Shown piece by piece: positions 16,477 through 40,905 of a stretch of 47,334 bases of DNA. Source of the DNA: Spirochaetia bacterium. Lineage in GTDB: Bacteria > Spirochaetota > UBA4802 > UBA5550. Location of the stretch: assembly GCA_009885955.1 (NCBI GenBank), contig VFJS01000087.1:1-47334 (forward strand), written 5' to 3'. How positions within the stretch are numbered: position 1 is the stretch's first letter; every line of letters starts with the position of its first letter. A program made the translations under genes and the position numbers. The notes under the pieces are model-generated. The model had not been told where the DNA came from. It ran no database searches and saw only the letters and a program-made list of their open reading frames with translations.

Positions 16477-16481
16477 ATTAT

Positions 16482-16510: not shown

Positions 16511-16524
16511 CTATTTTTTCACTA

Positions 16525-19058: not shown

Positions 19059-19421
19059 TCATGGGTATGCAGTGAATTCCAGGGCCTTGTCCAAGACTGT
19101 GTCGAGATCATCATAGGCAAATCCCACGGGACTTATACGCATTGCAGCTCCATTTCCCCAGCTCCCATAGGGCCCGGAGTTGGTGTTCCTGGCCCAGTCA
19201 TGAAATCTCCCTCCATACCCCCTACCGGGATACAGACGGTAATATTTTCTCATGTTATCAGCATAGTCTATGTCATACAAAATCGATTCTGCAAGTGCAA
19301 TGGTGAGGATTGAATCATCGGTATAGGTGCATTCAGGAGAAAAGAGGACAAAGTCCTTTGTCTTTATGTTGTTCCATTCATACACGGAACCGATAATGTC
19401 GCCGGCGATTGCTCCAAGCAT
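19059..19421 (-). pseudogene. truncated ADP-ribosylglycohydrolase
   Basis: The 120 residues match only the N-terminal third of an ARH/DraG-type ADP-ribosylglycohydrolase: MLGAIAGDIIGSVYEW, the metal-binding YTDDSILTIALA, and WGNGAAMRISPVGF. Whole enzymes are about 250-300 residues and carry further metal-binding Asp residues near the C-terminus, all missing here. The frame ends in a stop after ALEFTAYP, and no continuation is visible in the flank. It is therefore a remnant and probably inactive. Confidence 0.8.
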
Positions 19422-19791: not shown

Positions 19792-20259
19792 ATGGGAAAG
19801 TTTGTGATCGAGAAGATTTTGCAGAATATTACTCAGGCAGCTGAAATGTATCACCGTCTTGTACTGTTGGCCGGCACAACTGGGAAAACAACAGCCTTGC
19901 AAGCGATACGAAAGCAGATTTCAGCACCTCTTGTCAATATCAACCTTGAATTATCCCGTCGCATGCTGGAACTAACCGAACGTCAACGCGCTCTTCAACT
20001 GCCTCGATTACTAAACGATTTAGTTGAGTCAACAGTCGGTGACATAGTCTTATTTGATAACATTGAGATTCTGTTCGATATTGCTTTAAAACAGGATCCA
20101 CTGAGATTGATTCAGGGGTTATCTCGCATAAAGACAATTGTAGCAACATGGGGTGGAAATGTTTCTGGCGAGATATTGTCGTATGCGGCGCCGGGTCATC
20201 CCGAATACCGCCAGTATCATATTAAAGAATTCATAGTAATATCTCACAATAGCGAATAA
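19792..20259 (+). CDS. brxF: BREX type 3 P-loop protein BrxF
   Basis: This is a small predicted ATPase (155 residues), first gene of type 3 BREX operons. The typical opening [10 protein letters not shown] is followed by GTTGKTTAL, a shortened Walker A: only two residues separate the first Gly from GK, where four are usual. A Walker B-like stretch, [15 protein letters not shown], is near residue 85. brxC follows 20 nt downstream. Its biochemical role is not well established in any BREX. Family identity is inferred mainly from size, the LVLL-G-GKT opening and its position before brxC. The ribosome site is weak, and a GTG at 19804 is an alternative start. Confidence 0.85.
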
Positions 20260-20279: not shown

Positions 20280-23200
20280 ATGAAATACAGTGATGTTATC
20301 CAGTTTGAACCCATTGAGTCCGTGGTTCAACTCCGTGTCGCTGATGAAGCCTCAGCGGCAAAAACTCTCGTACGTACCTATGTGATTTCTGAAGAAATGG
20401 CTGAGAAGCTAAACAGTCTTGTATTCTCACAACTTCAGTTTGAACAACCTACTGACAACAAGGGACTCCTGGTAGTAGGGAACTATGGCACAGGAAAATC
20501 ACACTTGATGTCTGTTATTTCTGCTCTTGCTGAAAATGAATCTCTTGTTAAAGTACTAAATAACAAATCAGTGTCAGATGCTGCAGTAAAAATTAGTGGA
20601 AAATTCAAGGTGATTCGTACAGAAATTGGCGCTACAACCATGTCGCTCCGCGATATAATCATCGCAGAGATTGAGGAACACCTTGCTACGATCGGAATAA
20701 CCTACACCTTCCCTTCGGCTGGTAAAGTAACCAATAACAAACGATCTTTTGAAGAGATGATGTCAGCATTCCATGAAGAATATCCCGAGCATGGACTTCT
20801 TTTAGTAGTGGATGAGCTTCTTGACTACCTACGCACACGGAAAGATCAGGAGTTGATCCTCGATCTCAATTTTCTGCGTGAAATCGGTGAAGTATGCAAG
20901 GACCTGCGTTTCAGATTCATAGCCGGCATTCAGGAGGCTATATTCGATAGCCCTCGTTTCTCATTTGTAGCAGATAGTATTCGTCGCGTCAAGGACCGTT
21001 TCGAGCAGATTCTCATCGCCCGTAAGGATGTAAAATTTGTCGTTGCGGAACGTCTTCTCAAGAAATCAACAGACCAGCAAGTAAAAATCCGCGAATACCT
21101 TTCCCCTTTTGCAAAATATTACAGCCACATGAATGAACGCATGGATGATTTCGTTCGGTTGTTCCCGGTACATCCCGATTATATTGATACGTTTGAGCGG
21201 GTTACTGCAGTAGAAAAACGCGAAGTTCTGAAGACCCTTTCACTGGCCATGAAGAAGTTACTTCATCAGGAGATTCCAAGCGGTCACCCAGGTGTTATCG
21301 CTTATGATGGATACTGGACAACATTGAGGGAAAACCCTTCTTTTCGTGCTGTCCCCGATATAAAAGCAGTCATCGATTGCAGTCAGGTGCTTGAATCACG
21401 CGTTCAACAGGCCTTTACCCGTCCTTCATATAAACCAATGGCTGTGCAACTCATCCACGCTTTATCCGTTCATCGTCTTACTACAGGTGATATATATTCA
21501 CCTCTCGGTGCGACTGCTGAAGAACTTCGGGACGGTCTTTGCCTTTATCAACCGGGGATCGAGGAAATGGGCGGGGATCCCGCTGATGACCTGCTCTCCC
21601 ATGTAGAAACTGTTCTCAGGGAAATCCATAAAACCGTTAGCGGTCAATTTATATCAGCGAATCCCGATAACCGCCAGTATTATCTCGATCTTAAAAAGAC
21701 CGATGATTTTGATGCACTTATCGAAAAACGTGCAGAAACTCTGGATCCCACACATCTGGATCGCTATTACTACGAGGCTCTCCGGCGTGTTATGGAATGC
21801 ACAGACCAGACCTACGTTACCGGTTATAAGATCTGGCAACATGAACTGGAATGGTTGGACCACAAGGCTGCCCGTCAGGGGTACCTTTTTTTCGGCGCTC
21901 CCAATGAACGATCCACAGCAGTCCCCCCACGGGATTTTTATGTTTATTTCATTCAGCCCAATGATCCGCCCCATTATAAAGACGAAAAAAAACCCGATGA
22001 AATCTTTCTCAAGTTATCGAATACCGATGAAGATTTCCGAAAACCACTCTGTAACTATGCAGCGGCCCTTGATCTTGCCTCCACATCTTCAGGGCATGCA
22101 AAATCGACCTATGAATCGAAAGCCTCCAATTTCTTACGAGATCTGGTCCAGTGGCTCCAGAAACACATGGCCACAGCGTTTGAAGTGACCTATCAGGGAC
22201 GAACCAAATCCATAACCGAATGGGCCAAAGGCAAGCCCCTGCGCGATCTCACCGGCATAAGCTCTCACGAGCGTATAAACTTCCGGGATCTGGTGAATAC
22301 CATATCAGGCCTCTGTCTCGGCACACAATTTCAGGACCAGTCTCCAGAGTATCCTTTTTTCTCGGTACTAATCACCGGCGCCAATCGCGCACAAGCCGCT
22401 CAGGATGCACTGCGGGCTATTGCCGGCCAGACACGAACCAAACAGGCCACCGCGGTTCTCGATGCTCTGGAGATGCTCGATGGAGAGCGACTGGATCCTT
22501 ATCATTCCAAATATGCCAAACATCTTATCGCCATAGCTAAGAAAAAAGGGCATGGTCAAGTTATCAACCGGAACGAAGTAATTCAGGAAGTCTATGGCGT
22601 CGATTATTTTGCCCCCGATAAAGGCTTTCGTTTAGAGCCAGAGTGGGCCGTCGTGATACTGGCAGGTCTGGTCTATGCCGGCGAGGTGGTTCTGGCTATC
22701 CCAGGTAAAAAATTTGATGCCACCGGCCTTCCTGTTCTGGCGGGAACGAGCATTGACGAATTGATACAATTCAAGCACATTGAGCAACCTAAAGACTGGA
22801 ACATCCCAGCCCTGAAAGCCCTATTCGAGCTGTTGGGGCTTACCCCGGGGATGGTTCAATTGATAACTCAGGGGAAAGAAGAACCCGTACAGGAACTACA
22901 AAAAGCTGTTAACAAAACAGTAAATCAGCTGGTGCTGGCACATCAAAGCCTGCAAAACGGTCTTAACTTTTGGGGTCGCAGCCTTCTGGTTGAGGATGAA
23001 TCACAAAAGATTCGTCAGAAACTCGATACCGCAAAGTCCTTTCTCGAATCCCTGCAAGCTTATACCACAACTGGGAAACTGAAAAATTTTCGAAATGATG
23101 TTTCAGAAGTAAATGCCAATAAAGAAAATATTGACTCAATGGTTACCATAAAATCGCTGGAAGAGCTTATCTCCGATCTCAACACACCCGTATCATATCT

Positions 23201-24011
23201 ATTCAATGCCGAGGCCATATTACCCGATGGTCACGATTGGGTTGTTAAGATGAAAACCGCTCGTAACGAAATCATGGAAACCATCATGAACCCGGCCAAG
23301 CGCGACGTCCCTACATTCAGACCAGAGGCTCAACGAAAACTCAATAAACTGAAAAAAGCTTATTTGCATACCTATCTATCGATGCACACCAAGGCCCGCT
23401 TCGGGGTGAACGATGATAAACGCAAGGCGAAGCTCATGAACGATGAGCGGTTAAAATCTCTGCAAAAACTGTCCACCATCGACTTGATGCCCCGACAGCA
23501 TTTATTAGACTTCCAAAACCGGCTTGCGGGATTGAAAAGCTGTTTCGCCCTCACCGAACAGGAGCTTGAGGCCAGTCCGGTGTGTCCTCATTGCAACTTC
23601 AAACCAGAGGTAGAAGCATCAGTGCATAATTCTGCTGCACTACTCGATGCGATGGACAAGGAACTGGACACTATACTGGAGAATTGGACTCAAACATTAT
23701 TGACCAATCTCGATGATCCCACTACTAAGGGGAATATGAGCCTTCTCAAACCCGAGCAACGGAAGCTATTGGAGGGATTCATTAAAAAACGCACATTACC
23801 GGATGATCTGGACCATGAATTCCTCCATGCACTCAAAGAGGTGTTGTCGGGCCTCATCAAGATTCCGGTAAAAACTGTGGATTTACGTGCCGCTCTCCTT
23901 GCCGGCGGTTCCCCGGTTACCCCTGTCGAGATGAAGAAACGTTTTGACGATTATATTGATTCTCTCACCAAGGGGAAAGAGCCGGGCAATGTGCGGATTG
24001 TGCTGGAATAG
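20280..24011 (+). CDS. brxC: BREX ATPase BrxC (PglY-like)
   Basis: This 1243-residue protein is the large AAA-type ATPase present in every BREX system and needed for defence. The N-terminal ATPase domain has Walker A GNYGTGKS (67-74) and Walker [13 protein letters not shown] (about 173-184). The long remainder is mostly helical, ending with a CPHC pair ([10 protein letters not shown]) near residue 1110 that may bind zinc with other ligands. The length fits the family (about 1200). GGGG is close before the ATG, and pglX follows after 35 nt. It probably powers the assembly that lets the PglX methylase and the other Brx proteins act on phage DNA. Confidence 0.93.
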
Positions 24012-24046: not shown

Positions 24047-26824
24047 ATGGCTAAAAAGAAAAAATCGTCATCAAGAGAACTCTTCATGGACGAGAGCGGT
24101 CAAAGTGAACTGTTCGAGAAGTCTTATGAGCAGGAATTGGCCGAACGGCAGAACCAGCCTGTCGAATGTCTGGGCATGACATTCCCGAATGACGAAGCAC
24201 GGAGAAATCATTTTCTTGAGATACTGCGCGAGATGCTGAAAGACCCTGAGTTCAGGAAGATTGAAGGCTTCCCCATCGGTGCCGATGAGGATATACTCGC
24301 CCTCAGCGATCCGCCCTACTACACAGCATGTCCGAATCCGTTCATTGGTGATTTCATCAAACAATACGGTAAACCCTATGACCCAAATGTGCCCTATAGC
24401 CGGGAGCCATTTGCGGCGGATGTGAGTGAGGGGAAGAACGATGCTGTTTATGTATTTCATACATATCATACAAAAGTGCCTTATAAAGCCATTATGAAAT
24501 ATATACTGCACTACACCCAGCCTGGTGACATTGTATTCGATGGCTTTGGCGGGACAGGCATGACGAGTATTGCTGCTCAGAGTTGCGGCGATTCTCAATT
24601 GGTAAAGGATCTTGGATTCACTAATTATGGTGCCAGAACACCCATTACTGCAGAGCTTTCAACGATTGGGGGTTTCATAAGTGGGACACTCAACTCGGCG
24701 AAAATTGATGAACATGAAATTAAAAACTTCGAAACATTGATACACGAAGTGGAAAAAAAGTATGGATGGGTCTATGAAACGCGCCGTCAGAAGGATGGAA
24801 AACCAGCACGAATCAATTACGTTGTGTGGTCAGAGTGTTATATATGTGGAAATTGCGGTTCCGAATTGATCTACTATAGGGATTCTGTTGGCAAAACAGG
24901 ATCATCACTTGGAAATGACATCCAGTGTTTGAACTGCAAAGTCGTTGTCCCTAAGAGAACCCTTGAAAGAAGTTTTGTCACCGTGTTTGATTCGATATTA
25001 AATAAATCAATTAAACAAGTAAAATACTTACCATCTCTTATCAACTTCAGTGTTGGATCTAAAAGAGGCGAAAAAATCCCAGACAGCTACGACATAGAGA
25101 TAATGACTAAGGTGCTGAATTGTAAAGTCAGCAATTGGTTCCCGGCAGATCCAATACCCCAAATAGAAAGATACTATAAGGACGGACTACATATTATAAA
25201 TATTACTCATACGCATCAGTTTTATACGAAGCGCAATCTTCTTTGCGCTTCTGAATTATGGGCAGCTCTTAATAGTAATGTGCAAAAGCTAATCTTTACT
25301 TCATTTTGCGATAGGCACATTGTTAAGAGAAACAGATGGCTTTCAACCGGCCCAACAAGACCCCTCAACAACACTTTATACTTTCCACCTCTTTTTGCCG
25401 AAGTCAATGTTTTCGCTATCGCTGAACGTAAGTCAAGGGATCTGAGGAAAGCTTTATCGGTTACACGAAGGCAACCAAGAGTTGCTACATCTACGACACA
25501 AAGTTCAACAAACCTTAACCAAATGCCTGAATGTTCAGTAGACTATATATTCACAGACCCACCATTTGGTTGGAATATTATTTATTCAGAATTGAATTTT
25601 CTGTGGGAATCTTGGATAAAAGTACGGACAAACGAATCGACTGAGGTAATCGTAAATGACCAAGCAAAAAAGACTATTGATGATTACCGAGAGTTGATAG
25701 CGAGGTGTTTCTCTGAGAATTATAGAATCCTCAAACCGGGCAGATGGATGACTGTGGAATTCCATAACTCCAGCAACCTTGTTTGGCACTCGATTCAAGA
25801 AGCACTTCTTCGAGCAGGATTTGTTGTAGCAGATGTTCGTACTCTCGATAAGAAACAAGGATCTATGAATCAGGATTTTTATCGAACCGGTACAGTTAAG
25901 CAAGACCTCGTTATTTCGGCCTACAAACCCGATGGTGGGTTTGAGGAACGCTTCAAGCTAGAAGCTGGTACTGAAGGAGGCGTTTGGGATTTCATCCGTA
26001 CTCATTTAAAGCAGCTCCCAGTCTTTGTCTCCAAAGATAGTCAAGCTGAGATAATCGCTGAACGTCAAAACTACTTATTATTTGATCGTATGATTGCCTT
26101 CCATGTTCAGCGTGGTGTAACCGTTCCCTTGTCTGCATCAGAGTTCTACGCCGGACTGATCCAACGTTTTTCAGAACGGGATGGGATGTATTTTCTGCCT
26201 GAACAGGTTGCCGAATACGATAAAAAGCGGTTAACCGTTCGTGAGATTCTTCAACTCCAGCTATTTGTCACTAATGAATCCTCGGCCATTCAGTGGCTTA
26301 AACAACAGGTCACAAAAAAACCCCAGACCTTCCAAGAACTCCACCCGCAGTTTCTTATGGAGACTGGCGGCTGGCAAAAGAACGAGAAGCTACTAGAGCT
26401 GTCTGAGCTACTGGAACAAAACTTTCTCCGTTACGACGGAAAAGAAGATGTACCTAACCAAATTCACAGCTATCTATCCACTAACTTCAAGGAACTTCGC
26501 AAACTCCTCAAAGACGACGAAGCCCTCCGTGTGAAAGCCAAAGACCGTTGGTATGTCCCTGATCCGAATAAAGCCAGCGATCTTGAAAAACTACGTGAAA
26601 AATCCCTACTAAAAGAATTCGAGGACTATCGTTCTACTTCACAGAAAAAGCTGAAAGTCTTTCGCCTTGAAGCTGTGCGCGCTGGTTTTAAGAAAGCATG
26701 GCAAGAACGGAATTATGCGACGATTATTGCCGTGGCAGAGAGGATACCTGAGAATATATTACAAGAGGACCCGAAATTGCTTATGTGGTATGATCAAGCG
26801 ATGACGAGGATGGGAGGAGTGTAA
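24047..26824 (+). CDS. pglXI: BREX type 3 adenine-specific DNA methyltransferase PglXI
   Basis: This 925-residue protein is the site-specific methylase that marks host DNA. Near the N-terminus is DPPYYTACPNPF (88-99), then the SAM-binding FDGFGGTGMT (164-173). A cluster of five Cys at 264-297 (CYICGNC...CLNC) is probably a zinc ribbon. The catalytic DPPF, in FTDPPFGWN, is at 504-507, followed by YSELNFLWESW, typical of DUF1156-related methylases. The N6-adenine target is inferred from the family. The stretch coding for about residues 195-620 is visibly more AT-rich than both ends, as if the recognition region had been exchanged. The following ATPase gene begins 1 nt after the stop. Confidence 0.9.
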   Translation: MAKKKKSSSRELFMDESGQSELFEKSYEQELAERQNQPVECLGMTFPNDEARRNHFLEILREMLKDPEFRKIEGFPIGADEDILALSDPPYYTACPNPFIGDFIKQYGKPYDPNVPYSREPFAADVSEGKNDAVYVFHTYHTKVPYKAIMKYILHYTQPGDIVFDGFGGTGMTSIAAQSCGDSQLVKDLGFTNYGARTPITAELSTIGGFISGTLNSAKIDEHEIKNFETLIHEVEKKYGWVYETRRQKDGKPARINYVVWSECYICGNCGSELIYYRDSVGKTGSSLGNDIQCLNCKVVVPKRTLERSFVTVFDSILNKSIKQVKYLPSLINFSVGSKRGEKIPDSYDIEIMTKVLNCKVSNWFPADPIPQIERYYKDGLHIINITHTHQFYTKRNLLCASELWAALNSNVQKLIFTSFCDRHIVKRNRWLSTGPTRPLNNTLYFPPLFAEVNVFAIAERKSRDLRKALSVTRRQPRVATSTTQSSTNLNQMPECSVDYIFTDPPFGWNIIYSELNFLWESWIKVRTNESTEVIVNDQAKKTIDDYRELIARCFSENYRILKPGRWMTVEFHNSSNLVWHSIQEALLRAGFVVADVRTLDKKQGSMNQDFYRTGTVKQDLVISAYKPDGGFEERFKLEAGTEGGVWDFIRTHLKQLPVFVSKDSQAEIIAERQNYLLFDRMIAFHVQRGVTVPLSASEFYAGLIQRFSERDGMYFLPEQVAEYDKKRLTVREILQLQLFVTNESSAIQWLKQQVTKKPQTFQELHPQFLMETGGWQKNEKLLELSELLEQNFLRYDGKEDVPNQIHSYLSTNFKELRKLLKDDEALRVKAKDRWYVPDPNKASDLEKLREKSLLKEFEDYRSTSQKKLKVFRLEAVRAGFKKAWQERNYATIIAVAERIPENILQEDPKLLMWYDQAMTRMGGV

Positions 26825-26825
26825 A

Positions 26826-28220
26826 ATGCTAACTCAACTAAGAATACAGAATTTTAAAATATGGGAAGATACCGGTGAGATCCGCATGGCACCGATCACA
26901 TTGTTTTTTGGGGCAAACAGCTCGGGCAAATCCAGTATAGGACAATTTTTGATGATGCTAAAGCAGACAGTTGAATCCCCAGACCGAAAAGCGGTTTTCT
27001 ACCCAGGTGGAAAAAACTCAGCAGTTCAACTTGGTTCATATCAAGAAATGGTTTTTCATCGTAATCCAGAAAATAAAATTTCTTTCGAATACGAATGGGC
27101 TATTCAGAATTCTCTTCAAATAAAAGATCCAATTACCAGCCAGACTTACGTAGGAGACATTATTTCATTTGAAGCTGTAGTTGGTCTTGGAGATAAAGAA
27201 AAACATACTCTTGTTGTTGATCGTTTAAAATACAAGTTGATGGCGAATGAAAAGCAGGCATTAGCTGTGGGGCTATCACATAAAACCGGTGCCAAATCTG
27301 AATACACAGCTGAGGCAGAGCAGTATAATCTTGTTCGAAAAAAAATGCGCGCATGGTCACTTAAGGATGCCGTTAGATTTTATGGTTTCCCAGATGAAGT
27401 GGTCGCGTATTATCAGAATGCTGATTTTGTCCAGCAGCTCAACTTACGACATGAAAAGTTGTTCCAATCGCTTTTTTATCTTGGTCCTCTTCGAACTAAA
27501 ACGGAAAGGCTTTACTCATGGACAGGTATTGAGCCTGAGAGTGTAGGTTTTACAGGCGAAAATACAATTGCGGCTATTCTTGCAGCTCGTAACCGTAAAA
27601 TCAGCCTCGGCAATAAACGCCCCGCAAAGCCTTTCGAAGAAATTATTGCATTGAAACTTGTTGAAATGGGCTTGATTGAGGAGTTTAAAGTGAATCCAAT
27701 CTCCGAAAAGCGACAGGAATATGAAGTCAAGGTTAGAACTAAAGGATCGAAAGACTGGGTAGATCTTCCAGATGTCGGTTTTGGTATCTCTCAGGTACTT
27801 CCTGTATTAGTTCAATGTTTTTATGCACCACATGGATCAATTATTCTAATGGAGCAACCAGAGATACACTTGCATCCAAGAGCTCAGTCGGCACTAGCTG
27901 ATGTAATGCTTGATGTGATCAACTCCAAAGAAAATGGGATTAACAGGAACATCCAGTTGATTATAGAGACTCATTCTGAGCATTTTTTACGACGTCTACA
28001 ATGGCGAATTGCTGAAGATACTGTACAACATGAGAAAATATCAGCATACTTTGCTGATGTCACAAAAACACCAGCACATTTGGAACCTTTGCGGATAGAT
28101 ACATTTGGCAACATCCAGAATTGGCCGGACAATTTCTTCGGTGATGAAATGGGAGATATATCAAAACAAGCAAAGGCAGCAATGAATAAGCGTTTAGACC
28201 AAATTAAAACCGGGTTGTAA
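26826..28220 (+). CDS. DUF3696-type ABC/AAA ATPase embedded in BREX
   Basis: This 464-residue ATPase has an ABC/SMC-like head. It shows Walker A GANSSGKSS (29-37), the ABC signature-like GFGISQ near 318, Walker B ILMEQPEIHLHP (about 340-350) followed by a D-loop, and the switch His in ETHSEHFLRRL near 381. The tail INWPDNFFGDEM-type segment near residue 430 is the DUF3696 mark. Related ATPases (PtuA, AriA, OLD) act as sensors that hold or release a nuclease. Here the next gene encodes a PIN-like protein. It starts 1 nt after pglXI, so it is translated as part of the operon. It is not a standard BREX-3 gene. Confidence 0.9.
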   Translation: MLTQLRIQNFKIWEDTGEIRMAPITLFFGANSSGKSSIGQFLMMLKQTVESPDRKAVFYPGGKNSAVQLGSYQEMVFHRNPENKISFEYEWAIQNSLQIKDPITSQTYVGDIISFEAVVGLGDKEKHTLVVDRLKYKLMANEKQALAVGLSHKTGAKSEYTAEAEQYNLVRKKMRAWSLKDAVRFYGFPDEVVAYYQNADFVQQLNLRHEKLFQSLFYLGPLRTKTERLYSWTGIEPESVGFTGENTIAAILAARNRKISLGNKRPAKPFEEIIALKLVEMGLIEEFKVNPISEKRQEYEVKVRTKGSKDWVDLPDVGFGISQVLPVLVQCFYAPHGSIILMEQPEIHLHPRAQSALADVMLDVINSKENGINRNIQLIIETHSEHFLRRLQWRIAEDTVQHEKISAYFADVTKTPAHLEPLRIDTFGNIQNWPDNFFGDEMGDISKQAKAAMNKRLDQIKTGL

Positions 28221-28228
28221 ATAAATAA

Positions 28229-28723
28229 ATGACTAGTTTTCCTTCTAAATGTATAATCGATACTAATGTACCGAAAACTGCAAATCTTCAGATAGATCCT
28301 ATAAACATTCCGGACGATCTTGTTGAATGCGTTCAGGCTTGTCTTAATGCCATTGACCATGTTGTTAACTATGGAAGACTTGTAATTGATTGCGGAGATG
28401 AAATCTATAACGAATATAATAATAATTTAAGTTTGAGTGGACAAAAAGGCATTGGTAATGTTTTTATGAAATGGGTTCATGATAATCGTTGGAAGTTGAA
28501 GCTTGTCGATCGAGTCAATATATCAAAAAATGGCAGTTCTTACAATGAATTCCCAGAACATCCTGGTTTGGTCAAATTTGATTTATCAGATCGAAAATTT
28601 GTAGCTGTTGCGAACGCTCATTCAGATAAACCTCCAATTTTACAGGCGACAGATAGCAAGTGGTGGGGATGGCGAGATGCTTTAGCTGAAGTTGGAATAA
28701 CTGTTTGTTTTCTGTGCCCTTAA
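28229..28723 (+). CDS. PIN-like nuclease, probable effector of the ATPase
   Basis: This protein has 164 residues. Its start, CIIDTNV (8-14), is the classical PIN-domain first strand with catalytic Asp11. Further acidic residues sit where PIN enzymes have them: DEIYNEY (57-63), DLSDRKFVAVAN (118-129, Asp121 favoured) and ATDSKWW (Asp142). PIN enzymes are Mg-dependent RNases that leave 5'-phosphate and 3'-OH ends. It follows the DUF3696 ATPase by 8 nt, a pairing that suggests ATPase-controlled cleavage. The substrate is unknown; tRNA or mRNA is a guess. The domain call is by eye from the motif order. Confidence 0.75.
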   Translation: MTSFPSKCIIDTNVPKTANLQIDPINIPDDLVECVQACLNAIDHVVNYGRLVIDCGDEIYNEYNNNLSLSGQKGIGNVFMKWVHDNRWKLKLVDRVNISKNGSSYNEFPEHPGLVKFDLSDRKFVAVANAHSDKPPILQATDSKWWGWRDALAEVGITVCFLCP

Positions 28724-28758
28724 TATTGTGAAACAAAGTACATTGAAAAGATGTTATC

Positions 28759-29448
28759 GTGAAAGAAGATTTTTTCAAATTCCCTCCGACTCCACATATA
28801 GCATTACTTGGCGATATTAAAGTCAGGGATGATAAAGTATTGTCACAATCCGAACAAAATGATTTCCTACAGCATGAACTTGTGATTGAAGAAAAAGTTG
28901 ATGGGGCTAATATGGGAATTTCTTTCGACGCAGAAGGAAATATCTGCACTCAAAATAGAGGGGCATACTTACATCTTCCTGGTATGGGCCAGTGGAAAAA
29001 GCTCACTGATTGGCTAACTCCAAGAACCAATGCACTTTTTGAACATTTGGTAGACCGATACATTCTTTTCGGTGAATGGTGTTATGCTCAGCATTCAGTA
29101 TATTATAACCGATTACCGGACTGGTTTTTAGGATTTGACATTTACGATAAAAAGACTGCTCGTTTTTTTTCGTGTATCCACAGAGACCAATTTTTTCGGA
29201 CAATTGGCATCAGTCAAGTGCCAATCATTGATCGTGGCAATTTCACTTTTGCCAGACTTGTTAAAATGATTTCACAGTCACAACTTGGTGATCAGCTATC
29301 TGAAGGTCTGTATCTTCGTTATGACCAGGGCAACTGGTTAAGTAAGAGAGCAAAACTGGTTCAGCCAGCCTTTTTTCAATCAATTGAACAACATTGGTCA
29401 CATATGAAAATTAAACCGAATCGAATAAATATTGAAAGTGACGTATGA
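28759..29448 (+). CDS. Rnl2-type RNA ligase embedded in BREX
   Basis: This protein has 229 residues, the size of a minimal ligase domain. All nucleotidyltransferase motifs are present: I, KVDGAN with the adenylated Lys46; III, LFGEW (103-107); IIIa, FLGFDIYD (123-130); IV, EGLYLR (182-187); and V, KRAKLV (196-201). It should join 5'-phosphate to 3'-OH RNA ends (or nicks) using ATP, so it could reseal breaks left by the PIN-like protein without a kinase or phosphatase. The start is GTG at 28759. No strong ribosome site is visible, which may keep it at low level. The stop overlaps the brxHII start (ATGA). Confidence 0.9.
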   Translation: MKEDFFKFPPTPHIALLGDIKVRDDKVLSQSEQNDFLQHELVIEEKVDGANMGISFDAEGNICTQNRGAYLHLPGMGQWKKLTDWLTPRTNALFEHLVDRYILFGEWCYAQHSVYYNRLPDWFLGFDIYDKKTARFFSCIHRDQFFRTIGISQVPIIDRGNFTFARLVKMISQSQLGDQLSEGLYLRYDQGNWLSKRAKLVQPAFFQSIEQHWSHMKIKPNRINIESDV

Positions 29449-32306
29449 CTGATTCAGAGAAAAATATTAACAATGTTTGGTATTACAGCCCCGACCACAG
29501 ACAGCTCTGTCAGGTTATCGAAACCCAAACCCTATGGAACGAAACAACCTGTCGCATTTGGCTGCCAGGTCGAGATACCATTGTCCGAGTACCCGCAGCT
29601 CGATTACAGCCGCTTGATAGCATCGGCACTTCATCTCCGGATAATATAACCTATGTCGTAGCAGCCGCACGAGTAGCTGATGCCCTCACACAAGATGTGC
29701 TTCTTGCTCTCATTGAAACTACGGTGATACCACTCCCACACCAGATCCGTGCTTTATCTCGTGCTATATCTGGAGACAGCGTACGTTATCTACTGGCAGA
29801 TGAGGTCGGTTTAGGAAAAACGATCGAAGCCGGCTTGATAATGCGCGAATTAAAACTGCGTGGATTGGTGAAGCGAACACTGGTAATCGCCCCAAAAGGT
29901 CTGGTGAGTCAGTGGGTGAGCGAAATGCGCTTTCACTTTGGCGAGACCTTTCAGCTGGTGCTCCCGGAAGATATTAAAGCGATAAAGCGCTTAGTGCCCT
30001 ATAATAGCCAATTCAGCTCCGAAATAACAAATCATGATATAGACGCCCCCCCTTCCAATGCTTGGCAGATGTTTTCACAGGTGGTCGTCCCCATGGATTC
30101 CGTCAAACCTTTGGACAAACGCCGGGGATGGAGTGCTGAACAGATCAGTGAATTCAACCGTGAGCGTTTTGAGGATCTGGTTTCAGCCGGATGGGATCTT
30201 GTAATAGTCGACGAGTCGCACCGCTTGGGTGGCAGCACCGATCAAGTTGCCCGGTTCAAATTAGGACAGGGACTTGCCGAGGCATCCCCTTACTTGTTAC
30301 TCCTATCCGCCACCCCGCATCAGGGGAAGACCGATGCCTTCCACCGTTTGGTATCGCTGATAGACGCAGAAGAATTCCCTGATGTAGAGAGTGTTACCCG
30401 CGAGAAGGTCCATCGCTATGTCATTCGCACTGAAAAACGCCATGCCATTGATGCCGAGGGCAACCCGCTCTTCAAGCCCCGCCGCACACAACTGGTACCC
30501 GTCACATGGGAGCCTCATCACGATAAGCAGTACCAGTTGTACAAGGCAATTACGGAATATGTACGCGATGGCTATAATCAGGCCATGAAAGAGAAGCGCA
30601 GTTATATCGGATTTTTGATGATCCTTATGCAGAGACTCGTTGTTTCCAGCACCGCTGCCATACGGACGACACTGGAAAGGCGCCTCGAAGTTTTGATTGA
30701 ACCGGACGAACAATTGACGTTGTTCCCTGCATCCCCCATGGAAGATTGGGCGGATATGGATGGACAGGAGCAGGTTGACCTTCTCTTGAATGCTAAACTC
30801 AAGGCATTAAAGAATGAACGTGCTGAGGTTCAACTCCTGCTCGATGCTGCCGCTCTATGCGAAGTGTCAGGCCCAGATGCTAAAGCTGAAGCACTGCTGG
30901 ATTGGTTGTATCGCCTGCAATCAGAAGAAGGGGACCCGGAGTTAAAAGCCTTGGTCTTCACTGAGTTCGTCCCCACGCAAGAAATGCTCAGACGGTTCCT
31001 GACCGAAAGAGGATTCTCTGTAGTTTGTTTGAACGGTTCAATGGACATGGAAGAACGTAAAAGAGTTCAAGTAGAATTTGCGCAAAATGCAAGGATTCTC
31101 GTTTCTACTGATGCAGGCGGAGAGGGCTTAAACCTTCAGTTTTGCCATGTGGTCATCAATTACGATATGCCGTGGAATCCTATGCGCATTGAACAGCGCA
31201 TTGGCCGGGTGGATCGTATCGGACAGACACATGTTGTTCGTGCCATCAACTTCGTCTTTGATGGGTCCATAGAACATCGTGTACGAGAGGTTCTTGAACA
31301 AAAACTGGCAATTATCTACGAAGAGTTTGGAATCGATAAAACCGGTGATGTTCTCGATTCTGCTCAAGCCGGCAGTATGTTTGATGAAATGTATGTGGAG
31401 GCCATCCTAAATCCTGAGAAAGTTGAAAATACAGTTGATACTGTCCTCTCTCGATTGAAGGAACAGGCACACGAAGCTCAGAGTACAGCTTTATTGCTCG
31501 GTGCAAATGATGATCTGGAACCAGGTGAGGCACAGCGTTTACTAACTCACCCTTTACCACATTGGGTGGAGAATATGACTGTGAGTTACCTGAAAGCTCA
31601 TGGCGGCAAAGCTGTAAGGGAAAAACAGGGCTGGAACCTGATATGGCCGGATGGCGAAGCCTATGAAAATGTCGTCTTTTCCGGAAAAGAAGCAGAAACA
31701 ATTCCTTTCTCACAGCATTTAACACTGGAAGAACCTCGCATCCGTGGTCTGGCTATGAGACTACCACGCTTTGCACCGGGGCAACCGATTCCAACTATAT
31801 CCATTCAAAATCTAACCGATGAGGTACAGGGAATCTGGTCATTATGGCGTATCGCTATTGCATCCATGGAATGGAACCGCCGCCGGATAATGCCGCTCTT
31901 CCTATCTGACAATGGTATGGTGTATCAGCCTACTGCTCGGCATATATGGGATCAGCTTCTGGCCACACATTTTACCACAAAATCGAGTCTTGAAAGCACA
32001 GAATCATTATCAATATATGAGAGATTGCACCATGCGGCCGAAGAGCACGGGAAACCTATCTATGATTCGCTTCTTGCAGAACATCAAGCACGCATAATAC
32101 GGGAACGCGAAAAATCCGATTACGCCTATGTAGCACGCAAGAGATCCATTGAGCGCATCGGTCTTCAGCAAGTCCGGACTCATCGCCTGAATTTACTGGA
32201 ACAGGAAGAGCATACCTTTAAAGAACAGCTTGAACAGAAAGCTCACGCCTATCCCGAGATAGTGCCCCTGATTGTATTACGAATTGAAGGTGGCAACAAT
32301 GACTAA
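29445..32306 (+). CDS. brxHII: BREX type 3 helicase BrxHII (SNF2/DEAD-like)
   Basis: This 953-residue superfamily 2 helicase/translocase is typical of type 3 BREX. Walker A ADEVGLGKT (about 117-126), the DESH box (near 255), LLSATPHQGK (motif III), VFTEFVPTQEML, and the C-lobe DAGGEGLNL with RIGRVDRIGQ (near 585-594) are all intact. The last ~300 residues are helical and hold no motif I know. The start overlaps the ligase stop by 4 nt, and its stop overlaps the pglZ start by 8 nt, so the embedded module is translationally joined to the core operon. Confidence 0.93.
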   Translation: MTDSEKNINNVWYYSPDHRQLCQVIETQTLWNETTCRIWLPGRDTIVRVPAARLQPLDSIGTSSPDNITYVVAAARVADALTQDVLLALIETTVIPLPHQIRALSRAISGDSVRYLLADEVGLGKTIEAGLIMRELKLRGLVKRTLVIAPKGLVSQWVSEMRFHFGETFQLVLPEDIKAIKRLVPYNSQFSSEITNHDIDAPPSNAWQMFSQVVVPMDSVKPLDKRRGWSAEQISEFNRERFEDLVSAGWDLVIVDESHRLGGSTDQVARFKLGQGLAEASPYLLLLSATPHQGKTDAFHRLVSLIDAEEFPDVESVTREKVHRYVIRTEKRHAIDAEGNPLFKPRRTQLVPVTWEPHHDKQYQLYKAITEYVRDGYNQAMKEKRSYIGFLMILMQRLVVSSTAAIRTTLERRLEVLIEPDEQLTLFPASPMEDWADMDGQEQVDLLLNAKLKALKNERAEVQLLLDAAALCEVSGPDAKAEALLDWLYRLQSEEGDPELKALVFTEFVPTQEMLRRFLTERGFSVVCLNGSMDMEERKRVQVEFAQNARILVSTDAGGEGLNLQFCHVVINYDMPWNPMRIEQRIGRVDRIGQTHVVRAINFVFDGSIEHRVREVLEQKLAIIYEEFGIDKTGDVLDSAQAGSMFDEMYVEAILNPEKVENTVDTVLSRLKEQAHEAQSTALLLGANDDLEPGEAQRLLTHPLPHWVENMTVSYLKAHGGKAVREKQGWNLIWPDGEAYENVVFSGKEAETIPFSQHLTLEEPRIRGLAMRLPRFAPGQPIPTISIQNLTDEVQGIWSLWRIAIASMEWNRRRIMPLFLSDNGMVYQPTARHIWDQLLATHFTTKSSLESTESLSIYERLHHAAEEHGKPIYDSLLAEHQARIIREREKSDYAYVARKRSIERIGLQQVRTHRLNLLEQEEHTFKEQLEQKAHAYPEIVPLIVLRIEGGNND

Positions 32307-34308
32307 CTGGCGTGAACAAATTCTCAAGGAATTCACACCCAAGGTCGCTCGTCTAACCATAGTCGCTGACCCCGATGGGTTATTGCTCGAAGAGGGCATT
32401 TTAGAAGGGATACACGAACGCAGTTTTGAATTGATTCCTTTTGATGACCATATCGCCTTCAGATACGCATATGAAACACGTTTCAGGTCCCGTTGGGATA
32501 AAGGCGAACATACAGAACTTGTAGTCGTTTTGCGGACACCTGTGAGCGATTTCAGCCTTTTACCGTATGACCTGCTTCAAACCGGGCGTCAGTTATCATT
32601 CAGCCTCGGTGACATTTTCCCCAACCTCAGCTACCCGATAGTAACTGAACTTGATCGCGGGGATCTCGATGCACTTTTTGAAGCTCAGGTACGGCATGCA
32701 CCGGGCATTTTAGGCGATAATGCCACAAAAGAATTTATCCTGCGTCATGTATTCGAAATCGCTCCGGAACTTATAAAACAGGTGTCAGATCTGCTACGTA
32801 TTCTGCTTCGCATACATTATAGAGGTCAGCGTCTTCCTCGGATTCTTAATGAACGTCTCATCATCCTACTTCAACAAAGCAGTTTTTTCAATGATTGGGC
32901 CCTGGAAAAAATGGTTACTGATCGAGAGGCGTTCTTCGCCTTCTTACAGGAACGATGGCCTGTTTTCCTTGATCACGAAGCATCAAAGGAAGCAGGAAAG
33001 ATTCGAGAAGAACGTGAAGCCTATAGTCTGAAGTACGATGGCCCCCTCGACTTACCCTTTGATCATCACGATATACGTGTATACATCGATAATTTATTCG
33101 TTGAGGGCATTCTTAAGCCCGTGTCCCATGAACAAGCTGAAATGCTTTCAAAAACATGGATTGGTATAGGCATCCAAACTCAAGAGCAAAAAGATGACTC
33201 AAGACGACTTCAGAAACTTATTGATAGTCTAACTGTCTCAATTCCTTCTGATACAGCGAAACACACAGTCTGGTTGCATTTTGCCCGTGGTTGGGCAGAG
33301 TTTGTATTACTACTCCACAAGGAGTCTGTAGGCAATTTACCCAAATATCAATCAGAGGTATCTCAACTGGAAGAAAAAGTTGATACGGCTTTCTCTGCAT
33401 GGCTACTGAAACGCTATTCCGGTCTTATCAATCTTCCACCCTCACCTCCGGTTATGCTGCATCATTTACCCCGGTTCCTCTCGCATCGATTAAATGAGGG
33501 AAATAAAATTGCTTTAATAGTCATAGACGGTCTTTCACTGGACCAATGGCTGGTCATTCGCTCAACCCTGACAATGCAACTACCAAAGTACCAGTATCGG
33601 GAAAATGCTGTTTTTGCATGGGTTCCATCTCTTACGTCCATATCGCGACAAGCCACCTTCGCAGGTAAGGCGCCGATATATTTCCCAGAGAGTATCAATG
33701 GTACAGATAAAGAACCAGCACTATGGTCACAGTTTTGGGCTGATCAGGGCCTTGCCCCTAACGAAGTTGTTTACCAAAAAAACTTAGGAGCTTGCGACTT
33801 GGAAAAGCTGACTGAATTGCTTTCTCACCCAAAAGTAAAGGTAGCCGGCCTTGTCGTTGATATAGTAGACAGAATAATGCACGGCATGGAAATGGGAACC
33901 GCCGGTATGCATAATCAGGTAGACCAGTGGGTCAAACAACAATATCTGAGCAAACTGATTACCCTACTTTCAGAAAAGGGCTTCAGGGTATTTCTCACCT
34001 CAGATCATGGGAATATCGAAGCCGAGGGTTGCGGCCGGCCTTCCGAGGGAGCTACGGCCGACCTGCGGGGTGAACGTGTTCGTGTATATCCGGATGCTTC
34101 GCTACGTCGCAATATAAAGGACCGCTTCCCTGAAACTATTGAATGGAGTACGATTGGCCTCCCGGAGGACTTTCTCCCGCTACTGGCACCCCACCGGCAG
34201 GCTTTTATTCAGGAAAAGCAAAAAACGGTATGCCATGGGGGCATTGCAATTGAAGAGCTTATCGTTCCTTTTATTCAAATAGAGAAGGAAACGTATGAGC
34301 AGCAATAG
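32299..34308 (+). CDS. pglZ: BREX alkaline-phosphatase-like protein PglZ
   Basis: This protein has 669 residues from the ATG at 32299, which follows GAAGGTGG and overlaps the brxHII end (ATGACTAA). An upstream TTG in the same frame (32272) is not needed. The second half is the PglZ domain of the alkaline phosphatase superfamily: IALIVIDGLSLDQW (about 404-417) carries the first metal Asp, and FLTSDHGNIEAEG (about 565-577) the later Asp-His pair. PglZ is the signature protein of BREX/Pgl. In studied systems it is a metal-dependent hydrolase whose in vivo substrate is not settled. brxA overlaps its end by 14 nt. Confidence 0.93.
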   Translation: MTNWREQILKEFTPKVARLTIVADPDGLLLEEGILEGIHERSFELIPFDDHIAFRYAYETRFRSRWDKGEHTELVVVLRTPVSDFSLLPYDLLQTGRQLSFSLGDIFPNLSYPIVTELDRGDLDALFEAQVRHAPGILGDNATKEFILRHVFEIAPELIKQVSDLLRILLRIHYRGQRLPRILNERLIILLQQSSFFNDWALEKMVTDREAFFAFLQERWPVFLDHEASKEAGKIREEREAYSLKYDGPLDLPFDHHDIRVYIDNLFVEGILKPVSHEQAEMLSKTWIGIGIQTQEQKDDSRRLQKLIDSLTVSIPSDTAKHTVWLHFARGWAEFVLLLHKESVGNLPKYQSEVSQLEEKVDTAFSAWLLKRYSGLINLPPSPPVMLHHLPRFLSHRLNEGNKIALIVIDGLSLDQWLVIRSTLTMQLPKYQYRENAVFAWVPSLTSISRQATFAGKAPIYFPESINGTDKEPALWSQFWADQGLAPNEVVYQKNLGACDLEKLTELLSHPKVKVAGLVVDIVDRIMHGMEMGTAGMHNQVDQWVKQQYLSKLITLLSEKGFRVFLTSDHGNIEAEGCGRPSEGATADLRGERVRVYPDASLRRNIKDRFPETIEWSTIGLPEDFLPLLAPHRQAFIQEKQKTVCHGGIAIEELIVPFIQIEKETYEQQ

Positions 34309-35047
34309 GTTTACACAAATTGGCGTAGATCGCCTAATACGGCTGGAGTGGCTTGAGAAAACCGCTTCCCTTGTTTTGGCCGGAAATGACATAAAAACCA
34401 TAAAGGAAATCCTTCAAGCAGACCTACAAAAATCATTTCGGTCAGAAAGATTGGATGTACGTGGTTCACTCGATAAAACCATAACAATTTTAACTAAAAC
34501 GTGGGCCTTGGTCCCAAAAGAACTCGAAACGCTCAATCGTGATGCATTGGAACTCCTGACAATTAGTCCTCGCCAATCACACCTAAGCCTTCATTGGGGA
34601 ATGCTATTGGCTGTATATCCGTTCTGGGCTGGTGTAGCCTTGCAGGTTGGACGCCTCATCAATTTACAGGGAACCGCTGTCGCCGCACAAGTCCAGCGCC
34701 GGGTCCGAGAACAATATGGAGAGAGGGAAACGGTAACTCGTCGAACCCGATACGTACTCAGATCCTACTTAGATTGGGGCGTTCTTCAAGAAAGCGATAC
34801 GAAAGGTATTTATACATCAGGAATCAAATTGCCTATTGATGATCCAAAATTAACTGCATGGCTTGTTACCGCGTTACTCCACATTCGGGTAAACCGTTCT
34901 GCCCCATATAATGAGCTAATGAATAGTCCTGTATTTTTCCCATTTACTTTCAAACAATCTAATCCAAAAGTTCTTTTTTCAGACAATTCAACTATTGAAA
35001 TTTACCAACATGGGTTTAATGAAGATATTGTTATGATTAAAAAATAA
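34295..35047 (+). CDS. brxA: BrxA-family protein (DUF1819-like), last BREX gene
   Basis: This 250-residue, helix-rich protein closes the operon, where type 3 BREX has brxA. In type 1 systems BrxA is a small DNA-binding helical protein. Visible features are an N-terminal helical region, a hydrophobic LSLHWGMLLAVYPFWAGVALQVGR segment in two adjoining parts near residues 95-120, a basic helix VQRRVREQYGERETVTRRT typical of the family, and a winged-helix-like end. It is somewhat longer than the roughly 200 residues usual for the family. AGAAGG precedes the ATG, which lies inside pglZ. The call relies partly on position. Confidence 0.8.
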   Translation: MSSNRFTQIGVDRLIRLEWLEKTASLVLAGNDIKTIKEILQADLQKSFRSERLDVRGSLDKTITILTKTWALVPKELETLNRDALELLTISPRQSHLSLHWGMLLAVYPFWAGVALQVGRLINLQGTAVAAQVQRRVREQYGERETVTRRTRYVLRSYLDWGVLQESDTKGIYTSGIKLPIDDPKLTAWLVTALLHIRVNRSAPYNELMNSPVFFPFTFKQSNPKVLFSDNSTIEIYQHGFNEDIVMIKK

Positions 35048-35703: not shown

Positions 35704-37773
35704 TCATCCCCCTGTGTCAGTATCGAATTCTTCCTTTTCTGCATTTTCAACTACAACCTTTTTTAACCACCACTTATACTTATCTTTGGGAATGCTTTCC
35801 CATGATTTAAAATTATGAAAATAGGATGCTTTTCTAATGTCACCTATAGTTTTTAAATTCAGATTCTTATAATGATTAAAATCAATTTTTGTTGAATCAT
35901 CTCCCAATAATAATTTATCAGCTATTCCTTTATCCTGATCAGATCTATTTAACTCTTTAGGCCAAAATCTATAATTTCCGAATCTATTTAGTGCAATATA
36001 TCTATATTTATGAAATTTCTCAGGGTATAATCGAAATTTTTCTGAATTTGGAATGCCTCCTCTCATATTAAAAAAAGCACCGGCAACAATATGGTCCAAA
36101 TCATAAGGCAAGTCTTCTCTCCTATTATTAAATTGTGAAGGATCATATTCAGGCCACCACTTATAAATAAAGTGACGTTGAATCCATAGCACATAGTTCG
36201 GATTATTGAATTTTGAATCTTTCGGATTGCCTCTTTCATCGATAAAACATTTAATAAATTCATCAGGATTTAGTATTTTGAAATTGGATTCATTTTCATT
36301 TATCTTTGTTATATCTTTGATCTTCTCATATATTTGCTTACCAGGAAATATCCTTTTTTCTGCAAATGCGAGCTTAAATGTTTCTCTGGTTATAATATCA
36401 TTGCTATCAGTATTGTGCAGATAAAAATGTTCAAAGAGTGCATACCTGACTATCTCTCTTCTACTATTGTCATCTAATTCATTGTTATATGTCCATGCAC
36501 AAATCGTATGCCATATTCTCCAATACAAGGATGCAAGCAAAGGAGTTGGTAATCCAATATCATCTTCACCATATTTCTCACAATTATATGAAAGAGCTTC
36601 TTTAGCTTTTATTATGGAGCTAAGAATTTTATTATCTGACTGCCCTTGCCCAAAGTGTTCCTGTATCTTCTTTAAGAGTGATTTATCATCTTTATCAACA
36701 TATGATATAATGCTTTTGAAACTTCTCTGATTCAAACGAACAACATCCGAACGCTTAATATCATTATCCTCTTTGAGAGATATAACTGCCAATCTGACTG
36801 CAAGATGAATGATATTTATTTGAGAAAGAAACTTTCCAGCAGCCTGATTTTTGTATATATCCCAGACAATATTGTGGCATTTATACCAACGAAGTTTCAA
36901 GGCAGAATAAAATAATTCCTCAGCTGACATTACAATACCACCAGAATTTAATCTCTGAAAAACATTTCCAAGATCACTTATATCTTGTATCCCATCTATC
37001 AGATATAATGGAATTTTGAATTGTCTAATAGCATTAATTTTAGGACGCAATAATTCGATCTTCTCAATTAGCTCAATCCTGTTATCATTAAATTTCTTAT
37101 TAAGAGTTGGAAAATATCCTATTGGAAGAAGGTCATTGACATCAAATTTTTTCTTGATGTTTAAAAGATATTCAAAGGGAACAGGATAATCAGCTTTAAG
37201 TGGATAGGAATATTCTAAAATGTTTTTATCGTTAGGTCTTTTATGTTTATCTTTCCCAATAGCTTCCAATGCCATCGATTCAAGTTTGTCTAAGTAAGGC
37301 ACATTCCCCCAGGGATTTGCCAAAGTACACATAGAAAAATTAAATTGAATTGCATCGCTTTTATTTTTAGGAGATATATCTAACCACAAGCGAGCAGAAT
37401 CATTAGTAATATATTTTCTAAATCCCAAGGCTATAGCTATTGATCGTTGTTGCCCATCGATAATTATATAACTATCTTTGGATGGAGTAAAGTCGACAGT
37501 ATTATCATTGGCTTGCTGTTCCGAGTCTGTTTGAGATGTTCTCGTTCCAAGATCCTTTAATAATTTTGAAAATAATAAAACACCTATGGGGAAGCCTCTC
37601 ATAATAGAATCCCATAAAAGCTCTATTTGCGAATTTTTCCAAACAGCATCACGTTGGAATGATGGCAATCTATACAGTGATCTGGTACCTTTGTTTATTT
37701 CTTTCGCTAATATCTCGATATAGATTTCATCTAATCCCTTTTCGATATAAAGTTTATGCATTTCTATTTTCAC
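35704..37773 (-). CDS. GmrSD/BrxU-like DUF262 type IV restriction nuclease
   Basis: This 689-residue fusion has an N-terminal DUF262 (ParB-like NTPase) domain with LPSFQRDAVWKNSQIELLWD near residues 37-56 and the nucleotide-binding IIDGQQRSIA near 104. A long helical middle follows, then a C-terminal HNH-type DUF1524-like nuclease: DLDHIVAGAFFN near 577 and NRFGNYRFWP near 620. Such enzymes (GmrSD, BrxU) cut phage DNA carrying modified cytosines, using NTP. BrxU accompanies BREX in other bacteria, covering phages whose modified DNA escapes methylation-based systems. It faces the BREX operon convergently and so is separately expressed. The start is GTG at 37773 or ATG at 37761. Confidence 0.87.
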   Translation of the reverse strand: MKIEMHKLYIEKGLDEIYIEILAKEINKGTRSLYRLPSFQRDAVWKNSQIELLWDSIMRGFPIGVLLFSKLLKDLGTRTSQTDSEQQANDNTVDFTPSKDSYIIIDGQQRSIAIALGFRKYITNDSARLWLDISPKNKSDAIQFNFSMCTLANPWGNVPYLDKLESMALEAIGKDKHKRPNDKNILEYSYPLKADYPVPFEYLLNIKKKFDVNDLLPIGYFPTLNKKFNDNRIELIEKIELLRPKINAIRQFKIPLYLIDGIQDISDLGNVFQRLNSGGIVMSAEELFYSALKLRWYKCHNIVWDIYKNQAAGKFLSQINIIHLAVRLAVISLKEDNDIKRSDVVRLNQRSFKSIISYVDKDDKSLLKKIQEHFGQGQSDNKILSSIIKAKEALSYNCEKYGEDDIGLPTPLLASLYWRIWHTICAWTYNNELDDNSRREIVRYALFEHFYLHNTDSNDIITRETFKLAFAEKRIFPGKQIYEKIKDITKINENESNFKILNPDEFIKCFIDERGNPKDSKFNNPNYVLWIQRHFIYKWWPEYDPSQFNNRREDLPYDLDHIVAGAFFNMRGGIPNSEKFRLYPEKFHKYRYIALNRFGNYRFWPKELNRSDQDKGIADKLLLGDDSTKIDFNHYKNLNLKTIGDIRKASYFHNFKSWESIPKDKYKWWLKKVVVENAEKEEFDTDTGG

Positions 37774-40166: not shown

Positions 40167-40306
40167 ATAGTATACTGTCCTTTTTTTTGATTCATGATAA
40201 TAAACGAAAATGATCCTCAATATTGTAGAAAACATAGAATAATAAAAAATCAAGCATTATTTAATTCTCTCTCATATTCATCATTCACTTTTAGGATAAA
40301 AATCTT

Positions 40307-40894
40307 TCACCTGCCCTTCCCCTTCCTATGCCTGAACTCCCAGGGCGGCTGCGGGTTCGGCTCCTTCCATATACCCAGTTTCTTCTCCCTTGCCTGGCCC
40401 TCCTCCCTGATGAACTCCGAGGCATAGGGGGACTTTTTCAGGTACTGCTTGTACGCCCATGCATGCCCTTCGGATACCATCTCGCGATTGATATTTCTCC
40501 CGTCTAACCATATGATGCACACCAGTCGTTTGTACCTGTCCCTATCCATCACATCCACCTTCACCTTTTTCCGGAGAACCTTCTTCTCCAGGGCCTTCCA
40601 TGCCTCCCTGCCCCAGGGCTGGCCGCGCTTGCTGATCCTTCCTGTTTTTCTATTTTTCTTTTCTGTTTCCGGGGCGTCAATGCCGTATAAGCGGATCTTG
40701 ACCCTTGTCCCATCGGCATCCTTCACCTGGACGGTGTCGCCGTCGGTGACGCTTGTCACTATTCCTTCTATGGTGCGGATTGGTTTTTTTGCTGAAAGAG
40801 TTCCAGGATTACCTGTGATGGCTATAATGCATAAAATCAGTAGTACGATTGATCTTGGAGAATAATACTTTTCAATGAACTGCTGCAGTATCAT
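40307..40894 (-). CDS. exported thermonuclease (SNase family)
   Basis: This protein has 195 residues. An N-terminal hydrophobic segment (VLLILCIIAITG) serves as signal peptide or anchor, and is followed by a staphylococcal-nuclease domain from about residue 38. The calcium and catalytic residues are recognisable: Asp in VTDGDTVQV, Arg/Asp/Glu in IRLYGIDAPE, and Arg in RDRYKRLVC. The ending GHAWAYKQYL...LGIW is typical. It digests DNA or RNA outside the cytoplasm. It starts 11 nt after the addA stop, with an AGAGGATG ribosome site in the gap, so it belongs to the addB-addA operon, an unusual companion. Confidence 0.9.
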   Translation of the reverse strand: MILQQFIEKYYSPRSIVLLILCIIAITGNPGTLSAKKPIRTIEGIVTSVTDGDTVQVKDADGTRVKIRLYGIDAPETEKKNRKTGRISKRGQPWGREAWKALEKKVLRKKVKVDVMDRDRYKRLVCIIWLDGRNINREMVSEGHAWAYKQYLKKSPYASEFIREEGQAREKKLGIWKEPNPQPPWEFRHRKGKGR

Positions 40895-40905
40895 TATATC
40901 ATCCT

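Follow-up and report, generated by a model that had tools for sequence, protein, structure and literature searches.

A minimal RNA ligase as the likely repair arm of a mobile ABC-PIN cassette in a spirochaete type 3 BREX operon

The small RNA ligase described here is probably the repair arm of a self-contained, mobile defence cassette, in which it follows an ABC ATPase and a PIN-fold nuclease and which has been inserted in a type 3 BREX operon. The gene was found on a contig of a Spirochaetia bacterium (VFJS01000087.1), of which the whole stretch of 47,334 nucleotides was analysed and is called the window below. The genes concerned are the following:

19792..20259, + strand: BrxF (PADLOC E 2.3e-61)
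20280..24011, + strand: BrxC ATPase (PADLOC E 0, 2060.3 bits)
24047..26824, + strand: PglXI (BrxXI) methyltransferase, directly upstream of the cassette (PADLOC E 0, 1317.1 bits)
26826..28220, + strand: ABC ATPase, OLD/AriA-like, with DUF3696 (HEC-03B), 464 aa (HEC-03B E 1.5e-131)
28229..28723, + strand: predicted PIN-fold nuclease (PADLOC HEC-03A), 164 aa (HEC-03A E 1.4e-26)
28721..28762, + strand: end of the PIN reading frame by in-frame translation, with a premature in-frame TAA (28721-28723), the tail YCETKYIEKMLS and the ancestral TGA (28760-28762)
28759..29448, + strand: RNA ligase ORF, GTG start, 229 codons, TGA stop
29445..32306, + strand: BrxHII helicase (PADLOC BrxH E 0, 1528.8 bits)
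32272..34308, + strand: PglZ (PADLOC E 7e-295; Pfam PF08665)
34295..35047, + strand: BrxA (PADLOC E 8.6e-88)

The genes brxF, brxC, pglXI, brxHII, pglZ and brxA follow one another in this order on one strand, which identifies a type 3 BREX operon, and the three extra genes for the ABC ATPase, the PIN nuclease and the ligase stand between pglXI and brxHII, with the ATG of brxHII overlapping the ligase stop (ATGA, 29445-29448). The ABC ATPase scores above the Pfam cut-offs for AAA_15, AAA_21 and DUF3696, and the adjacency of HEC-03A and HEC-03B (26826-28723) classifies the pair as HEC-03. The AriA model of PADLOC matches the ATPase as well (E 5.9e-28), but the pair does not qualify as PARIS, which combines AriA with the Toprim protein AriB, since the partner is PIN-fold and gave no AriB match. 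Further genes surround the operon: an AbiEii/AbiEi pair with a WYL-domain regulator upstream of it (14571-17938), a short ADP-ribosylglycohydrolase-like ORF just before brxF (19059-19421; 120 aa against a profile of 287 positions, probably a fragment), and a GmrSD_N-domain protein directly after it (35704-37773, reverse strand). Beside this defence region, positions 39123-47138 encode a protein with a Fic domain, another with an SNase domain and two large PD-(D/E)XK proteins, of which one includes a UvrD helicase, and a group II intron D1-D4 element (Rfam) lies at the window edge (22-164, reverse strand).

Motifs and structural modelling identify the ORF as a true RNA ligase of which only the nucleotidyltransferase domain is present, and joining activity is predicted for it. 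Its sole Pfam match is RNA_ligase (PF09414; 107.7 bits against a cut-off of 27, E 9e-31, residues 40-200). The first-pass annotation had counted five nucleotidyltransferase motifs in 229 residues; the length and the presence of the motifs were confirmed, while their number is six: I (K46-V-D-G), Ia (R67), III (E106), IIIa (F126-D127), IV (E182-G) and V (R197-x-K199). The residues K46, R67, E106, D127, E182, R197 and K199 are invariant among 25 relatives reaching down to 27% identity. The only departure from the motif set concerns motif V, which reads R197-A-K199 in the window ligase and K225-x-K227 in T4 Rnl2, and whose first position is Arg throughout the 25-sequence set. An AlphaFold2 model built from 25 aligned sequences reached a mean pLDDT of 91.6. 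Its best match in the PDB was the RNA ligase of Naegleria gruberi (Z 17.9, 189 aligned residues), tied with T4 Rnl2, which followed within one unit (Z 17.0), ahead of TbREL1 (Z 15.5). Queried singly against PDB sequences, the ligase returned a chance match only, whereas the profile reached Rnl3, the Naegleria Rnl and T4 Rnl2. Modelling against T4 Rnl2 had been proposed in the first-pass annotation, together with the expectation that a DNA ligase or mRNA-capping enzyme as closest match would speak against its reading; the closest folds are ATP-dependent RNA ligases, so this did not occur. It is highly improbable that the ORF encodes a DNA ligase or a capping-type nucleotidyltransferase instead. 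Indeed, these enzymes share the nucleotidyltransferase fold, and well-characterised DNA ligases do appear lower in the structure list, none above a Z of about 12, as does an Aquifex entry whose title reads putative DNA ligase (Z 13.1); however, the top 25 entries by Z are all RNA ligases, no Pfam family other than RNA_ligase matches and an OB domain is absent. This candidate was ruled out by the ranking of structural folds.

The catalytic core and the motif order are those of T4 Rnl2, the Naegleria Rnl (Rnl5) and TbREL1, but the accessory domains of these enzymes are missing. In the AlphaFold2 model the protein consists of the nucleotidyltransferase domain alone and stops some 30 residues after motif V. 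It has neither the C-terminal domain of Rnl2 and REL1, and so falls outside the Rnl2-family architecture, nor the N-terminal OB domain of the Naegleria/Deinococcus type that marks Rnl5; only residues 139-339 of NgrRnl could be aligned, beginning at ligase residue 3. Since the relatives encoded in the same gene triad measure 221 to about 240 aa, start-site uncertainty aside, the minimal size is a trait of the family. All three cassette genes are under purifying selection (for the ligase, dN/dS of about 0.15 between loci L003 and L006).

The HEC-03A protein upstream is predicted to be a PIN-fold nuclease, in agreement with the earlier proposal that the ligase is connected with breaks of the PIN type. 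It has no Pfam match above threshold, a weak PIN_3 signal being present in some relatives, and no PDB sequence was matched by the PIN profile. The structure was modelled on the complete homologue of locus L004 (pLDDT 91.9). With VIA-align, VapC toxins ranked first in the PDB (best Z 8.7) and PIN domains filled nearly the whole top 50; Foldseek with the same model returned nothing significant. D11, E62, D118/D121 and D142 are invariant in 15 sequences and, judged by motif position, form a putative active site typical of PIN domains. The gene is not part of a VapBC pair, in which a small DNA-binding antitoxin lies beside the PIN toxin; its neighbours are the 464-aa ABC ATPase and the RNA ligase.

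The window copy of the PIN gene is stopped 13 codons early by a TAA that is absent from all close relatives. Reading past it yields YCETKYIEKMLS and then a TGA; close relatives read DYVxxKYxKKM at the tail position, and the profile match of the window PIN continues through one TAA. A frameshift at the PIN 3' end, as an alignment had been read, was discarded because in-frame translation shows the TAA instead. According to the L004 model, the lost residues correspond to a C-terminal helix after the PIN core, and the core domain is kept. The window copy is thus truncated and may be impaired: the TAA may have reduced both coupling and PIN function, or it may be an assembly error. The ancestral TGA, in the PIN frame, overlaps the ligase GTG as GTGA (28759-28762), and the TAA now leaves a gap of 35 nt between the two genes. 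An overlap of PIN stop and ligase start occurs in 12 of 14 relatives and measures exactly 4 nt (ATGA or GTGA) in 8; a GTG start of the ligase was also seen at L002 and L022. The first-pass annotation had correctly noted the GTG start and the weak ribosome site upstream of the window ligase, but its conclusion that the ligase is made at low dosage could not be upheld, since the GTG is half of the ancestral stop/start overlap. Both features are, from the sequence comparison, relics of translational coupling.

The ABC-PIN-ligase cassette was found at 17 loci including the window, with near-identical copies counted once, in at least six phyla. A ligase search of genome contigs gave eleven loci, nine of which carry the ABC and PIN genes directly upstream (L002-L008, L010, L011). 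The same triad is present on plasmids of Tistrella, Aeromonas, Azotobacter and Rhodococcus, on the viral contigs L032, L033 and L035, and in G220 and G332, which are genomes from the home phylum. Four of the cassettes reside in type 3 BREX operons (window, L002, L004, L011), whereas the remaining ones, among them those of L003, L006, L007, L019-L023 and L085, have no BREX gene nearby; the genes around the L007 and L085 cassettes include no obvious defence partners, and the cassettes of L032 and L033 adjoin an integrase-like gene, assigned by reading its N-terminus. Among 46 genomes of its class the PIN gene occurs in the home genome only, and the 393 genomes of the phylum include three clear cases, the home genome being one; this distribution indicates horizontal acquisition. 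Escherichia coli genomes gave no match to the Aeromonas cassette at the DNA level, and phage records gave no PIN relative. Some loci have features of their own. At L003 the start of a RecC-like gene, recognised by reading, lies on both sides of the cassette (4277-4639 and 9624-12842), as if a target had been duplicated. At L002 (3541-6306) the ligase is directly followed by pglZ, brxHII being missing from its usual place. L004 holds an extra gene of 564 aa between pglXI and the cassette (5725-7419), so that this slot of the BREX operon seems to collect inserts.

The association also holds when the search starts from the nuclease: the ligase adjoins PIN in four of five plasmid lineages (the fifth being Acinetobacter soli), on both viral contigs with a PIN match and in all three clear matches of the home phylum. 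Moreover, the distance matrices of PIN and ligase are correlated (r 0.84, p 1e-4); the corresponding values for the ABC protein are unreliable because the L007 ABC row is out of frame. In a maximum-likelihood tree the cassette ligases fall into a single group (20 rows), with a support (92/82) that is not strong, and the lone ligases of large phages and plasmids stand apart from them (98/95); near the latter no PIN relative was detected. L009 differs from the other loci in that its ligase, nested among the HEC-03 cassette ligases in the tree, follows another ABC-PIN-like pair, PADLOC PDC-M07A/B (E 2.6e-167 and 1.2e-45), the nuclease of which was assigned by motif only; the PDC-M07 pairs of L082 and L083 are without a ligase. 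These data bear on the idea that defence islands carry the ligase as a passenger for RNA repair in general, responding to other nucleases or to damage by phages and having no specific tie to PIN, which we regard as quite unlikely. Related lone ligases in large phages and megaplasmids, and the ABC-PIN pairs that have no ligase, would suit a passenger; yet an ABC-PIN pair lies directly upstream at every cassette-clade locus with sufficient upstream sequence, except L036 and the decayed L012, and the PIN and ligase distances track each other. On three large plasmids of three genera, a distant lone RNA ligase is followed by an AAA-family ATPase (L024 8956-10974, L025 8965-11458, L027 8986-10919), which is possibly another repair pair.

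Natural knock-outs show how far the ligase can be lost. On the Aeromonas caviae plasmid NZ_AP022111 (L087 4299-6394) the ligase is interrupted by ISAeme25 of the IS256 family, with a 9-bp duplication, and the ABC and PIN proteins do not differ by a single letter from those of an Aeromonas veronii plasmid whose copy is intact. ABC-PIN without ligase was also found on the Acinetobacter soli plasmid L072, where an HNH gene takes the place of the ligase and the ABC frame is split, and on the viral contig L091. L091, L072 and L087 accordingly led us to drop the rule that the ligase always accompanies intact ABC-PIN. The ligase is therefore common but dispensable, a resting cell tolerates ABC-PIN without it, and it is not a strict antitoxin. 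It follows that an obligatory antitoxin, which would constantly reseal PIN cuts and the loss of which would be lethal, as in a toxin-antitoxin pair working by repair, is an unlikely role. Such a role would explain the tight translational coupling and the near-constant linkage to PIN, as well as locus L086, where frameshifts affect ABC and PIN while the ligase frame has stayed open, as would be expected of an antidote, which should be lost after its toxin; it conflicts, however, with the unchanged ABC and PIN proteins beside the broken ligase of NZ_AP022111 and with the occurrence of ligase-free pairs. Decay has taken another form at L012, where ABC-PIN is deleted and an internal deletion of the ligase removes motifs III to IV, although a misassembly is possible. 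L009 and L012 are two contigs of one metagenome bin and seemingly alternative alleles of one locus: L009 carries the PDC-M07 ABC-PIN pair and a ligase with no brxHII, pglZ or brxA alongside, and L012 carries BREX with the ligase remnant.

PIN enzymes leave 5'-P/3'-OH ends, and a ligase acting on their products therefore needs no end-healing partner. The first-pass annotation had reported no Pnkp- or Hen1-like gene near the ligase, and this proved right: no member of the Pnkp, Hen1, RtcB or kinase-phosphatase families was found among the window genes scanned, and Hen1 (PF12623) and the Pnkp ligase (PF16542) were not found in the whole genome either, a control genome being positive. Their absence fits breaks that need no healing. 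One RtcB is encoded on another contig of the home genome and could handle cyclic-phosphate breaks.

Taking these data together, we propose that the ABC ATPase would hold PIN inactive, by analogy with AriA-AriB of PARIS, until infection or inhibition of BREX releases it. The released PIN would then cut an essential RNA, most likely tRNA if the analogy holds, leaving 5'-P/3'-OH ends that the ligase would reseal. Resealing might cap leakage and make the arrest reversible in cells that have rid themselves of the phage, the ligase setting the threshold or the recovery; a role in limiting, reversing or exploiting PIN cleavage is our inference. The enzyme is expected to need a partner, since it has no OB domain, no C-terminal RNA-binding domain and an Arg at motif V, and it might be brought to the nick by the ABC or PIN protein. 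The isolated nucleotidyltransferase domain of T4 Rnl2 joins pre-adenylated ends and adenylates 5'-P ends poorly, and the K225R mutant of T4 Rnl2 retains strand joining with weakened enzyme adenylation (PMC3149579). Because this domain alone is weak at adenylation and the Arg of the window ligase resembles K225R, end sealing without a partner is uncertain. In the trypanosome ligases an OB-fold partner, bound via the C-terminal domain, contacts the RNA (PMC4599027), and by analogy a partner would be expected for the window ligase. Alternatively, PIN and ligase might act as a joint effector, in which the ligase misjoins, circularises or AMP-caps RNA and so adds to toxicity. A nucleotidyltransferase-only enzyme with Arg in motif V may favour adenylation and joining over accurate repair, and an Rnl3 of Palaeococcus is reported to adenylate strongly and ligate weakly (cited in PMC12153264). 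We nevertheless consider a joint effector improbable, given that the catalytic set is invariant, the fixed Arg aside, and that a lone cassette-clade ligase (L036 5998-6663, on an 80-kb phage-like IMG/VR contig) suits repair or counter-defence better than toxicity. The L036 contig may belong to a phage that acquired the ligase for counter-defence.

Parts of the system are already known, namely the ABC-PIN pair, as HEC-03 and as a BREX effector, and a PIN gene beside an RNA ligase, as in HARP-Rnl3. In PADLOC, HEC-03 is a candidate system; the window ABC and PIN proteins match both of its models strongly, as do the tested plasmid and viral copies. It is listed there as an ABC-PIN pair only, with no ligase model (the window ligase matched 0 families), whereas most HEC-03 copies found here have a ligase as their third gene. 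OLD-ABC ATPases paired with PIN endoRNases have been described inside BREX core loci as backup effectors (Rakesh and Krishnan, 2026; PMC12839542); the main text of that work does not contain the word ligase. PARIS resembles the cassette in pairing an ABC ATPase of the same broad kind with a metal-dependent RNase, and tRNA cut by its AriB carries 3'-OH ends (PMC12409363), but the PARIS nuclease is of Toprim and not of PIN fold, and the ligase is extra here. The gene for HARP, a PIN RNase P, lies beside that for the ATP-dependent RNA ligase Rnl3, and a toxin-antitoxin pair has been considered (PMC12153264). The neighbourhood of a PIN nuclease gene and an ATP-dependent RNA ligase is thus similar; the differences are that the Rnl3-type ligase has further domains, that neither an ABC ATPase nor a defence locus is involved, and that HARP-Rnl3 occurs mostly in extremophiles. 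The Pnkp-Rnl-Hen1 complex, linked to ribotoxin damage (PMC4411300), is likewise a bacterial RNA repair system, but the home genome lacks Hen1 and the Pnkp ligase, and the cassette ligase would be suited to breaks that need no healing. New here, from gene order and sequence comparison, would be the ligase as third gene of the ABC-PIN module. In the literature searched, a ligase as part of such a module was not found; an earlier mention is possible (Burroughs and Aravind, 2016; Krishnan, 2020), and priority is unsettled.

To our knowledge, RNA repair directed against defence nucleases is either phage-borne, as with Pnkp and Rnl1 of T4 against PrrC, or placed in separate housekeeping operons. The cassette, by comparison, seems to carry both an RNA cutter and an enzyme able to undo the cut. 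As a tentative generalization, to which we give somewhat less credence than to the repair role itself, a defence system may encode an RNA-cutting effector together with the enzyme that reverses it, immunity would be a resettable translational arrest, and phages would gain by capturing the ligase; such a gain from a captured reset enzyme is suggested by the lone cassette-clade ligase of L036. If true, abortive defence with a cutter and a sealer under the control of one ATPase would be reversible and could be tested with respect to recovery, threshold and the RNA that is cut, and the definition of HEC-03 would gain a third gene. A small natural RNA ligase that consists of the nucleotidyltransferase domain only would, moreover, open partner dependence to study.
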